Origin: Bacteroidota bacterium
GTDB taxonomy: Bacteria > Bacteroidota > Bacteroidia > Chitinophagales > Chitinophagaceae
Direction: 5' to 3'
NCBI GenBank assembly: GCA_005884665.1
Contig: VBAT01000007.1
Span: 40,109 to 104,108 of the forward strand
DNA length: 64,000 nt
The position numbers and the translations under genes were made by a program. A model generated the notes under the pieces. That model had not been told where the DNA came from and searched no databases. It saw only the letters and a list, made by a program, of their open reading frames with translations. Position 1 is the first letter of the stretch, and each line of letters begins with the position of its first letter. Positions 15,977-50,396 of the stretch are shown here, in pieces.

Positions 15977-16151
15977 GCCTCCCCCTCTTATCCCTCTCCT
16001 TGCTTCGCTCCGCTCGCAATGACGAGGAGAGGGACGATATAGCGGTGTTCCCTCAAACTTCTCAGGCTACCACATCAACCTCAACTCTAGTTAGCATTTT
16101 TGGCCTCACCCTCCAACTCCCTTTCCTTGCTTCGCTCCGCTCGCAATGACG
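15977..16151. repeat. Mosaic repeat element in convergent junction
   Basis: The junction between two stop codons holds a CCCTCTCC...GGAGAGGG inverted repeat whose loop is filled by a 26-bp module (TTGCTTCGCTCCGCTCGCAA core). The same 27 bp recurs exactly at 15998-16024 and 16125-16151. The stretch between, about 85 bp, is a diverged reverse complement of the 102-bp unit seen at 48.2-48.7 kb. Confidence 0.8.
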
Positions 16152-47154: not shown

Positions 47155-48066
47155 ATGAACAAGCCTAAAAGAAGGGATGCCTTGAAAACCATAGCTGCAG
47201 GAGCTTTGTCTGCCGCATCAGCACCTTTATTATCTTCATTTACAAATAAAGAAGCCCTGAAAGAAACTTACAATGGCGATAACTATCGGCTAAAAGGCAA
47301 TATCAACCACTCAGTTTGCCAGTGGACCTACAATTTTTTACCCCTGGAAGAGCTATGCCTGACGGTGAAAAAAATTGGATTCAGCGCTATTGACCTCATC
47401 GCCCCAAAAGACTGGCCAACCCTTCAAAAACACGGCATATTTTGTTCCATGTGCTATATCGCCGGTAAAGTAAGCCTGACCGAAGGATGGAACAATAAGA
47501 ATTTTCATGCGAGTCTTATCAAAGACTACAATGAAACAATACCCCTGCTTCCTAAAGCGGGTTATAAAAACCTGATCTGCTTCAGTGGTAACAGGAACGG
47601 GATGGACGATGAAACAGGATTGAAAAACTGCGTCGAAGGACTCAAGCAAATCATGAGCCTGGCAGAACAGAACAACGTTATCATCCAGATGGAGTTACTG
47701 AACAGCAAGGTGAACCACAAAGATTATATGTGCGACCGCACACCGTGGGGTGTTGAACTGGTAAAACGCATTGGCTCTCCCAATTTCAGATTATTGTATG
47801 ATATCTACCACATGCAGATCGACGAGGGTGACGTCATACGTACAATAAAAGACAACAAAGATTATATAGGACATTACCATACCGGCGGTGTACCGGGGAG
47901 GCATATCATCGATGAGACCCAGGAACTGTATTACCCGGCAATCATGAAAGCGATACTTGAGACCGGGTTCAAAGACTATGTCGCACAGGAGTTCGTTCCC
48001 GATCAGAAGGATAATGACGAAAAGATAGCAGCGCTCAAAAAGGCGGTGAAGATTTGTGATATCTAG
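47155..48066 (+). CDS. Hydroxypyruvate-isomerase-like TIM-barrel protein with Tat-like signal
   Basis: This 303-residue protein begins with a twin-Arg segment (KPKRRDALKTIAAG) and a hydrophobic stretch, so Tat export is likely. The rest is a TIM-barrel of the sugar isomerase/hydroxypyruvate isomerase type with VIIQMELLNSKVNHKDYM, FRLLYDIYHMQIDEGDV, GHYHTGGVPGRHIIDE and YVAQEFVP. Substrate and reaction are not known. It closes the transporter part of the plus-strand locus; a repeat array of 647 bp separates it from the dehydrogenase genes. Confidence 0.88.
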   Translation: MNKPKRRDALKTIAAGALSAASAPLLSSFTNKEALKETYNGDNYRLKGNINHSVCQWTYNFLPLEELCLTVKKIGFSAIDLIAPKDWPTLQKHGIFCSMCYIAGKVSLTEGWNNKNFHASLIKDYNETIPLLPKAGYKNLICFSGNRNGMDDETGLKNCVEGLKQIMSLAEQNNVIIQMELLNSKVNHKDYMCDRTPWGVELVKRIGSPNFRLLYDIYHMQIDEGDVIRTIKDNKDYIGHYHTGGVPGRHIIDETQELYYPAIMKAILETGFKDYVAQEFVPDQKDNDEKIAALKKAVKICDI

Positions 48067-48107: not shown

Positions 48108-48691
48108 GTTCAGGCTTTTTGACGACGCAATGGAAAAGGAAGATGCAAAATGCTGAGAAGAACTGAAGTTGATGTAACAGTTCTGAAGATTGGAGGAGCA
48201 CTGATGCATCGTCCCTCTCCTCGTCATTGCGATCCGCCGACTGGCGGAGAAGCAAGGAGAGGGATAAGAGGGTAAGGCTTAAAATGCCGAGGAGCATTGA
48301 AGGTGATATAATAGCTCTGAAGTTTGCAGAAACACTGCAGTATCGTCCCTCTCCTTTGGAGAGGGATAAGAGGGTAAGGCTTAAAATGCCGAGGAGCATT
48401 GAAGGTGATATAATAGCTCTGAAGTTTGCAGAAACACTGCAGTATCGTCCCTCTCCTTTGGAGAGGGATAAGAGGGTGAGGCTTAAAATGCCGAGGAGCA
48501 TTGAAGGTGATATAATAGCTCTGAAGTTTGCAGGAATACTGCAGTATCGTCCCTCTCCTTTGGAGAGGGATAAGAGGGTGAGGCTTAAAATGCCAAGGAG
48601 CATTGAAGGTGATATAAGAGCTCTGAAGTTTGCAGGAACACTGCAGTATCGTCCCTCTCCTTTGGAGAGGGATAAGAGGGTGAGGCTTAAA
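48108..48691. repeat. 102-bp tandem repeat array with nested palindromes
   Basis: Three exact-length 102-bp units start at 48344, 48446 and 48548, with a partial unit from 48650 to 48691. A longer unit starts at 48210 (134 bp), and a more diverged copy lies at about 48108-48209. Each unit contains CCCTCTCC-TTT-GGAGAGGG (8-bp stem). In the 134-bp unit that loop is filled by TCGTCATTGCGA...GAAGCAA, which itself contains the palindrome TCCGCCGACTGGCGGA. Because 102 is divisible by three, long open frames exist on both strands (158 and 305 codons), probably not real genes. Confidence 0.9.
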
Positions 48692-48713
48692 AACTCAAAA
48701 TAATACATTCAAG

Positions 48714-50396
48714 ATGGCTGATAACACATTCGAAGCAATCGTAGTTGGCTCCGGGATCAGTGGTGGCTGGGCCGCAAAGGAGTTGACAGAACGGGGATTG
48801 AAAACACTCATGCTCGAAAGGGGACACGACATCAAACATGTCACCGACTATGAGCAAAGTAATAAGCCGGTATGGCAGTACCCGCATCGTGGCGGTCGTA
48901 CGCAGAAAATGATTGAAGAATACCCGGTATTAAAAAGGGATTATCCGCTAAATGAAAGAAGTCTTCATTGGTGGGTAAAAGACAGCGAATGCCCCTATAC
49001 TGAAACAAAACGTTTTGACTGGTTCCGCGGCTATCATGTCGGTGGACGCTCACTGATGTGGGGTCGTCAAACTTATCGCTGGAGCGATATCGATTTTGGA
49101 GCCAATGCCAAGGACGGTATTGCTGTCGACTGGCCGATACGGTATAAAGACATCGAACCCTGGTATACCCATGTTGAGAAATTTGCAGGCATCCAGGGAA
49201 CATATGAAAACCTGCCACAACTTCCCGATAGTCATTTCCTGCCGGGCATGCCGTTAAATGTCGTAGAAAAAGATGTAGCTGCGCGTGTCAAACAACATTA
49301 CAACAATAAACGTACAATCATTATTGGGCGCACTGCACATGTGACTGAACCGATACCAGGCAGAACTCCCTGCCAGTACCGTAATATGTGTGCAAATGGA
49401 TGTCCCTTCGGCGCTTATTTCAGCACGCAATCTTCTACACTGCCGGCTGCTGTGGCCACAGGAAATTTGACGTTACGTCCTTTTTCCATAGTTACAGAAA
49501 TTATCTATGACAAAGACACCAAGAAAGCAAAAGGAGTAAGGGTGTTGGATTCTGAGACCAATCAAACCTATGAGTTCTTCAGCAAGGTTGTGTTCGTTTG
49601 CGCTTCTTCTTTTAACTCAACCTGGTTACTGATGAACTCAGCCACGAACATTTGGCCGGAAGGTTTGGGAAGCAGCAGTGGTGAATTAGGTCATAATGTA
49701 ATGGATCATCATTTCCGTTGCGGCGCAAGTGGGGATGTGGATGGCTTCGAAGACAAATATTATTATGGGTTCCGTCCCACGGGCTTTTATGTCCCGCGTT
49801 TCCGCAATCTTCCCGGCGATGAAAAAAGAAATTATCTCCGTGGGTTTGGCTATCAGGGTGCTGCCAACCGCCAGGGTTGGTCGAGAGAAGTAAGGGAAAT
49901 GTCGATCGGGGCTGACCTGAAAGACATGCTGGCTGAACCAGGACCCTGGAGAATCGGTGCAACAGCCTTTGGTGAGATACTGCCTTATCATGATAACACC
50001 ATTTCGCTCGATAAGACTAAACAGGATAAATGGAAATTGCCTGTCTTAGCTATGAATGTGACCATAAGGGAGAATGAAAAGAATATGCGGGTCGATATGC
50101 AGAATGACATGAAAGAAATGCTTGAGGCTGCCGGTGTAAAGAATGTCAACACGTATGACAATGAATATTTCCCGGGTATGGGCATTCATGAAATGGGAAC
50201 AGCCAGAATGGGTAACGATCCAAAGACATCGGTACTTAATGCCAATAACCAGGTTTGGGATTGCCAGAATGTATTTGTTACTGACGGCGCATGCATGACC
50301 TCGGCTTCCTGTGTAAATCCGTCATTGACTTATATGGCCATGACAGCCAGGGCAGCCAATTTTGCGGTTGATGAATTGAAGAAAGGTAATTTATAA
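48714..50396 (+). CDS. GMC-family FAD-dependent dehydrogenase, large subunit (copy 1)
   Basis: This 560-residue flavoenzyme of the glucose-methanol-choline family has the FAD-binding GSGISGGWAAKEL at the N-terminus. The catalytic His is about residue 492 in IHEMGTARMG and the Asn at about 535 in NPSLTYMA. A cysteine triad C220-X5-C226-X3-C230 (CQYRNMCANGC) has the spacing known for the 3Fe-4S cluster of bacterial FAD-glucose dehydrogenase. No signal peptide; export is probably with the Tat-type subunit 3 encoded next (84 bp downstream). It likely oxidises a sugar or glycoside. Confidence 0.9.
   Translation: MADNTFEAIVVGSGISGGWAAKELTERGLKTLMLERGHDIKHVTDYEQSNKPVWQYPHRGGRTQKMIEEYPVLKRDYPLNERSLHWWVKDSECPYTETKRFDWFRGYHVGGRSLMWGRQTYRWSDIDFGANAKDGIAVDWPIRYKDIEPWYTHVEKFAGIQGTYENLPQLPDSHFLPGMPLNVVEKDVAARVKQHYNNKRTIIIGRTAHVTEPIPGRTPCQYRNMCANGCPFGAYFSTQSSTLPAAVATGNLTLRPFSIVTEIIYDKDTKKAKGVRVLDSETNQTYEFFSKVVFVCASSFNSTWLLMNSATNIWPEGLGSSSGELGHNVMDHHFRCGASGDVDGFEDKYYYGFRPTGFYVPRFRNLPGDEKRNYLRGFGYQGAANRQGWSREVREMSIGADLKDMLAEPGPWRIGATAFGEILPYHDNTISLDKTKQDKWKLPVLAMNVTIRENEKNMRVDMQNDMKEMLEAAGVKNVNTYDNEYFPGMGIHEMGTARMGNDPKTSVLNANNQVWDCQNVFVTDGACMTSASCVNPSLTYMAMTARAANFAVDELKKGNL

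Follow-up and report, generated by a model that had tools for sequence, protein, structure and literature searches.

Part of a Chitinophagaceae genome (Bacteroidota) contains an intergenic hairpin whose loop is occupied by another palindromic repeat, which in turn encloses a third palindrome. How one repeat came to lie at the tip of another is the question addressed here. We started from a window of 64,000 nucleotides, which is part of contig 110 (C110) in an assembly of 5.7 Mb and 124 contigs. The original prediction held that such modules insert specifically into the loops of other repeats.

A three-layered hairpin at the start of an intergenic array

Tandem Repeats Finder delimited an array of 102-bp units, four full and one partial, at 48,256-48,692 on the plus strand (period 102, 4.3 copies, 98% matches, score 825), and the four full units match their own consensus at 97-99% identity. 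The array is intergenic: on one side an isomerase-like gene has its stop codon at 48,066, and on the other an oxidoreductase-like gene starts at 48,714 (both names come from a reading of the translations alone). Each unit is bounded at both ends by arms of the hairpin CCCTCTCC-TTT-GGAGAGGG. Four such hairpins with the TTT loop, which we call empty, lie on the plus strand at 48,347-48,365, 48,449-48,467, 48,551-48,569 and 48,653-48,671. The first hairpin of the array, at 48,213-48,263, is filled, and reads CCCTCTCC-T-CGTCATTGCGA-TCCGCCGACTGGCGGA-GAAGCAA-GGAGAGGG. Between its left arm (48,213-48,220) and its right arm (48,256-48,263), a 34-bp module resembling the CGTC-tagged REPs, termed module B, occupies the apex (48,222-48,255, plus strand), and the inner palindrome TCCGCCGACTGGCGGA occupies the apex of module B (48,233-48,248). 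About 75 bp preceding the filled hairpin (48,147-48,221) share 80% identity with the 102-bp unit by BLAST; BLAST and the genus alignment mark 48,147-48,212 as the left part of the first copy of the host element, diverged from the later units.

When 48,205-48,271 was folded as single-stranded DNA, three nested stems were obtained (-18.8 kcal/mol, z -4.5), and none of 200 shuffles was as good. Sequence reading, Tandem Repeats Finder and the fold thus agree that the nested array with three palindromic layers is real. The arm CCCTCTCC occurs 12 times in the window on both strands, against 1.13 expected, and none of 100 shuffles reached 12. The same module had also been predicted, with a different centre, in the same hairpin loop at 16.0 kb. 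It is indeed there: a second filled hairpin of the host lies at 15,992-16,033 on the minus strand and contains module B as CGTCATTGCGA-GCGGAGC-GAAGCAA (16,000-16,024, centre GCGGAGC). Its fold is less striking (z -2.25, 4/200 shuffles as good). Another copy of module B close by (16,127-16,151, minus strand) abuts the right-arm-like GGAAAGGG and has no matching left arm.

An open frame of 158 aa with 34-aa repeats runs through the window array on the plus strand (48,227-48,703), and the array also lies within a 305-aa frame on the minus strand. A coding repeat was rejected, as by eye the plus frame of the arrays on C102 and C81 hits stop codons. A known RNA was rejected as well, all Rfam matches being below threshold: whalefall-1 RNA (RF01762) scored 20.3 bits against the host hairpin, with a gathering score of 37. 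These sub-threshold whalefall-1 matches sit at 48,447-48,483, 48,549-48,585 and 48,651-48,687 of the window.

The repeat to which the hairpin belongs, host element A, is dispersed and intergenic and measures about 100-135 bp. BLAST with the 102-bp unit located copies, single or in arrays, on C102, C81, C68, C56, C36 and C110, and the spacers in other contigs were about 74-86% identical to the window unit. A longer form found in the genus has, in order, CTTTTCGGA...TCCGAAAG, GAACTGAAGTTGATGTGGTAG...GCAGCACCGTCC, the hairpin and GGATAAGAGGATGAGGCC. Stem variants are paired across the genus (CCTTCTC/GAGAAGG, CCTCTCC/GGAGAGG). Since both arms change together between copies, the stem is maintained as such. 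In the C83 and C52 arrays (L080 and L096) each unit also repeats the apparent 3' end of the neighbouring gene, which is what tandem duplication predicts. On C86 (L081) an array of 99-bp units is cut off by the contig end, at 31,557, and array lengths in the assembly may therefore be wrong. A literature search by description rather than by sequence, from which subscription papers were outside scope, gave no name for host element A and nothing on palindromic intergenic repeats in Chitinophagaceae. Among the matches listed for the letters GTCATTGCGA, with which module B starts, titles and abstract openings seemed unrelated.

Copies of module B and its junctions with host A

The strict pattern CGTCATTGCGA...GAAGCAA retrieved 62 copies of module B genome-wide and none in the reversed control, and a slightly looser rule gave 69 distinct copies in the genome stretches examined. 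The excess of the module started by GTCATTGCGA is visible only at this whole-genome scale; in the window that start is not over-represented (3 exact occurrences, and 5 at one mismatch vs 4.18 expected). The distance between CGTCATTGCGA and GAAGCAA, for which our bounds differ from the loop bounds of Di Nocera et al. (2013), ranges from 2 to 33 bp and is most often 7 bp (29/69 copies). In 11 of the 69 copies the centre has arms of at least 5 complementary bases. Centres that vary so much in length and sequence would suit a scheme without any insertion, in which template switching during replication lengthens the tips of palindromes. We consider this highly improbable: the 18 bases required around the centre recur 62 times in the genome, and a near-identical pattern is present in 46 of 147 family genomes, which local growth of tips would not give.

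The TTGC and GCAA arms of the module pair in the fold. The base right after GAAGCAA is C in 23, G in 18, A in 15 and T in 13 of the 69 copies. In other genera this tail is near-constant (TCTG in 18/21 copies in G085, CCTC in 14/15 in G109), and the mixed base here marks module B as bounded in this genome. An A at position +5 past GAAGCAA in 49/69 copies is attributable to the hosts that the copies share.

The inner palindrome, written as TCCGCC-N1..8-GGCGGA, was found at 36 places in the genome (control 2). By eye, 13 of its 35 distinct contexts are in module B or decayed module B and 22 are elsewhere. In two of these 22, TCCGCCAGCTGGCGGA (L309) and TCCGCCAGTTGGCGGA (L357), the palindrome occupies precisely the apex of a terminator-like hairpin (AAGCCCG...CGGGCTT and AAAGCCG...CGGCTTT, respectively).

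Exact CCCTCTCC/GGAGAGGG hairpins with arms no more than 60 nt apart number 37 in the genome (reversed control 1), 30 with loops of 2-3 nt and 7 with module B; two of the latter have CATC or CCTC for CGTC. Each layer thus occurs alone in this genome, where 30 of the 37 hairpins are empty, module B has 62 copies and the inner palindrome 36. Combined forms that never come apart, as expected of a single fused sequence, were looked for in the genome and the genus and are not what we found. An alignment of ten chosen copies of host A across the genus has module B in three rows, in the columns where the other seven have a loop of 3-4 nt.

Empty and filled hairpins also stand side by side. In the window array and in those on C102 (60 kb) and C83 (15 kb), the filled hairpin comes first and empty ones follow. 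The first and third are filled in the C81 array. Two empty hairpins on C52 flank one that is filled and partly changed. In the genus relative G004 (C65, L269) a filled hairpin is found less than 100 bp from an empty one. Edge units that escape homogenisation would explain the filling of first hairpins: an unfilled copy would have been the source from which units 2-5 of the window array were amplified or homogenised, the edge unit having kept module B.

In the eight host-A copies that carry module B in this genome (G000), GAAGCAA directly abuts the GGAGAGGG arm, and on C73 of G004 it directly abuts GAAGAGGG. The left junction is variable, with T, C or nothing before CGTC, and TGTC once. The TTT of empty copies is absent from filled ones, and no target-site duplication was seen at the filled host-A junctions. 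The orientation of module B relative to host A is constant in 8/8 copies of this genome and 3/3 host-A copies of G004. In a symmetric hairpin, such constancy favours common descent or additional sequence recognition. The three filled copies on C102 have the same centre type and the same junction base, and are therefore probably duplicates of one composite.

At the window locus, host A is absent from five of six genus relatives, while G004 has it, filled and with another centre. At the C30 locus of G004, which carries A plus B, the other six genus genomes (five relatives and our own) have no A, and our own genome has a B-like repeat only. A and B may thus have arrived there together. Empty and filled versions, for which the original prediction proposed comparing close relatives, do occur across the genus, as in the ten-copy alignment; a clean orthologous pair of empty and filled A was not found at the window locus or the G004 C30 locus.

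The constant orientation in both genomes, the common centre and junction on C102, and the joint presence of A and B at the G004 site are what one would expect if A and B had fused once, the composite had spread and the empty copies had lost B. We nevertheless regard a single fusion as distinctly improbable. The TTT/AAA loop of empty copies is also usual in hairpins elsewhere and in other genomes, and copies that lost B at random would not regain it. The fusion is already weakened by a reversed orientation in G351, and copies of B in hosts with other stems and different fills in neighbouring units also go against it; these three are described below.

Module B at hairpin tips in this genome and in relatives

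We scored a copy of module B as flanked by a stem when its flanks could form at least 6 contiguous pairs no more than 4 nt from the junction, and obtained the null by pairing left flanks with right ones at random. Twelve of the 69 copies had such a stem, against a cross-pairing mean of 2.35 and a maximum of 7 in 2,000 shuffles. Because the host-A copies are related, we collapsed the eight to one, and the two C83 copies to one. After this, 4 of 61 copies had a stem, against 0.68 expected, a value reached by 0.27% of 3,000 shuffles. The host-A copy that was retained (L018) has a 5-bp stem and so went uncounted. Three of the four cases are C-rich/G-rich hairpins (L027, L072 and L080), and the fourth, L006, has GGATGC/GCATCC arms in another context. 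We take the collapsed test as modest evidence for an apex preference. Module B is also found in hairpins with other stems on C51 and C62 of this genome.

A rough motif rule found a G-rich right arm in 14 of the 69 copies and a CTCCCT-type left end in 4; another 18 lie in CTGGATGC tracts, and 33 are in other contexts. The four CTCCCT-type copies (C64 and others) show no apex arrangement. In five other genera (G085, G126, G065, G109 and G051), a flanking stem, allowed up to 6 nt away, accompanied only 2 of 79 distinct copies, which are part of the B copies known there. Apex placement thus belongs to this genus together with a few relatives, and not to module B generally. The predicted specific insertion into loops therefore stands as far as the excess at apices over re-paired flanks goes; exclusive use of loops does not, as 51 of the 69 copies lack both motifs, the G-rich right arm and the CTCCCT-type left end, and hairpin flanks are rare in the other genera.

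That most copies lie outside hairpins, so that B is not loop-specific, would also be expected if module B inserted regardless of structure and selection purged the insertions that break the stem, supposing that the host A hairpin is an RNA or DNA signal. The paired changes by which the stem is kept in the genus fit this too. We find it rather unlikely, since the spacers of about 65 bp, which should be under little constraint, particularly within arrays, showed no B in the host-A units that we read.

Hairpin contexts of module B were seen in G004, G006, G281, G313 and G351. The stems differ from that of host A in G281 (CCTCCTCCC/GGGGAGGAGG), G313 and G006. In G351 (L257) host A carries GCACCGTCCCTCTTGCTTC...GCAATGACGGAGAGGG, i.e. 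module B reversed relative to the cases in G000 and G004. The filled hairpin of L257 is identical to that of L149 (Agriterribacter humi), and L148 (a Chitinophagaceae MAG) and L260 (G313) likewise share an identical one. A Flavobacteriales MAG (JAHBUM010000161.1, L222, from about 4140) contains two adjacent units CACCAAGGAGTCAGGCCCCCCTCTC..GAGAGGGG..GGTGAGG, with a B-like module at the tip of one and the palindrome CTGCCTTGCTCGCCGAAGCTTCAGCGTAGGCGAG at the tip of the other.

Module B flanked by CTCC (left) and GCAAG (right) occurred in 7 of 394 family genomes, one of which, G392, probably has no hairpin. A cross-phylum scan with CCTCTCC-N0..3-GTCATTGCGA gave at least 118 loci (127 matches), of which 80 contexts were inspected. 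At least 14 of the 127 matches listed passed a filter for a G-rich downstream arm. Among the 14, filled hairpins were recognised by eye at L148 and L149 (Chitinophagaceae) and L222 (Flavobacteriales). The other passing matches mostly look like CGTC REPs with a chance CCTCTCC alongside, and a few were not REPs.

When the arms of the host were searched for in 147 genomes, 12 had 15-60 nt between them. Several of these (G063, G101, G117 and G068, for example) have neighbouring hairpins and were not counted as fills. In G049, G095 and G143, CCCTCTCC arms contain other, mostly palindromic inserts. The CCCTCTCC hairpin of G095 (L244, L255) holds an unrelated palindrome, TAAGTCCACT...AGTGGACTTA, and G143 (L253) has a short insert in host A away from the apex.

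Tip insertion of module B is our best reading of these data. We consider it somewhat probable that B was acquired at the apex of host A more than once in the genus and its relatives, and that the A-plus-B composite was probably also copied as a unit. The reversed orientation in L257, the hosts with other stems and the differing fills of L222 indicate that apex acquisition was more than one event. Selection, or the copying of composites, could account for part of the pattern. Under the preferred reading, module B, a CGTC-tagged REP-like repeat, would have been acquired at the tip of the host A hairpin in place of TTT, and a further palindrome can sit at B's own apex. The step that we infer is insertion aimed at the tip of a hairpin or cruciform. 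One route would be a hypothetical transposase that recognises tips; the other would be cleavage of the hairpin at its tip, after which a short palindrome is captured. SbcCD cuts near the tip of hairpins. Removal of hairpin structures by SbcCD is cited by Di Nocera et al. (PMC3733652). With the loop lost and no duplication, cleavage and capture would fit at least as well as a transposase.

More doubtful, though conceivable, is the broader proposal that tips are preferred landing sites for short palindromes whatever the stem, CGTC REP-like, TCCGCC and other palindromes each replacing the loop. If true, this preference would let CGTC REPs spread along a route directed by structure, and would build nested hairpins of several levels.

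Transposase genes and known repeat systems

A linked REP-associated transposase, which had been suggested, was not found beside the module. The genome has three matches to PF01797, two of them above cut-off, and no full module B lies within about 1.5 kb on each side of these genes; one GTCATTGCGA start is about 1.3 kb from the gene on C55. The latter, the clearest match (170 aa), was rejected as a linked tyrosine transposase, since it adjoins copies of a different repeat. Upstream of this Y1-type gene (L099, C55:54976-58320) are three copies of GGAAGCAACCAG...GCCCCATAGGGGC, about 167 bp apart, and downstream is a two-copy repeat, 206 bp apart. L099 is possibly a REP-transposase locus unrelated to module B. 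Across the 147 family genomes, PF01797 was present in 17/18 genomes with at least 10 B matches vs 90/129 others (Fisher p = 0.026, uncorrected for kinship and genome size), in 22/26 with at least 5 copies (p = 0.15) and in 37/46 with at least one (p = 0.23). G156, with 15 B matches, is not among the PF01797 genomes. We consider this family-wide association weak and do not count it as evidence for a tyrosine transposase.

The head of module B is CGTC, not the GTAG type that, together with a repeat-flanked RAYT gene, defines RAYT-linked REPs and REPINs. In the parts of the reports available, REPs with RAYTs (PMC2817692) and REPINs (PMC3116915) resemble module B in being small and palindromic and in their presumed status as non-autonomous mobile DNA, and they differ from it in having a GTAG/GTRG head and a dedicated tyrosine transposase, neither of which was seen for B.

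Closest to module B are the CGTC-tagged REPs, known also from Bacteroidetes, for which the 2013 survey found no dedicated transposase (Di Nocera et al., PMC3733652). They have an 8-9-bp stem opening with complementary A-T pairs, a 4-5-bp loop (other lengths in a few species) and, in all entries of Table 1 there, a 3-bp unpaired tail, mostly CCA; most are head-head dimers (PMC3733652). Module B likewise carries the tag (CGTC, or TGTC or CCTC), followed by ATTGC and a GCAA-side arm, has a variable centre and many copies, and showed no repeat-flanked transposase gene in the PF01797 search. In contrast to the CGTC-tagged REPs, its copies lie bare within other repeats, and it has no constant 3-bp tail in this genome; its centres, often of 7 bp or more and several of them palindromes of 15-18 bp, may also be longer than the 4-5-bp loops. 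No bases are shared immediately after GAAGCAA, and TCC follows in 0/69 copies; we therefore call module B REP-like and do not file it in the superfamily.

The original prediction that no described element behaves in this way was wrong, given the REPs inside palindromes reported in 2013 and the nesting known from Volvox organelles, besides the insertion sequences that target REPs. Di Nocera et al. (PMC3733652) described REPs within palindromes that are themselves repeats, which is also the arrangement of module B in host A. In T. roseum, GTAG-23 REPs sit inside CCGSSCC(n3,4)GGSSCGG palindromes, a target with hundreds of genome copies (PMC3733652). That system also places a REP in a short palindrome, but it involves another REP superfamily, and its target is a short GC-rich palindrome, whereas here it is the hairpin of a longer dispersed element. 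Empty hosts are present here, while none were found in H. neapolitanus (PMC3733652). In Volvox carteri organelle DNA, short palindromes are inserted within others and some larger composites occur at several places (PMC2670323); unlike our case, this is organelle DNA with other sequences, and the available part of that report does not state insertion at the tip. The available part of another report describes merging palindromic clusters in yeast mitochondria (PMC4478555). According to the part of Tobes and Pareja (2006, PMC1525189) that was available, IS1397, IS621, ISKpn1 and ISRm22 insert into REPs, the insertion point of ISRm22 being at the palindrome axis. There too the target is a palindromic repeat, yet these are complete insertion sequences that encode a transposase, unlike module B, which is a short non-coding module.

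Nesting of separable repeats is thus already in print, and the present case has an unusually clear set of empty and filled copies. With empty copies beside filled ones, the targets can be counted and the right junction is clean, and tip-directed insertion becomes testable by comparison of strains. Stacked hairpins in intergenic DNA can build up through the nesting of separate repeats, and the spread of such modules bears on the question raised in 2013 (PMC3733652) of how CGTC-tagged REPs, with no dedicated transposase found, disperse.
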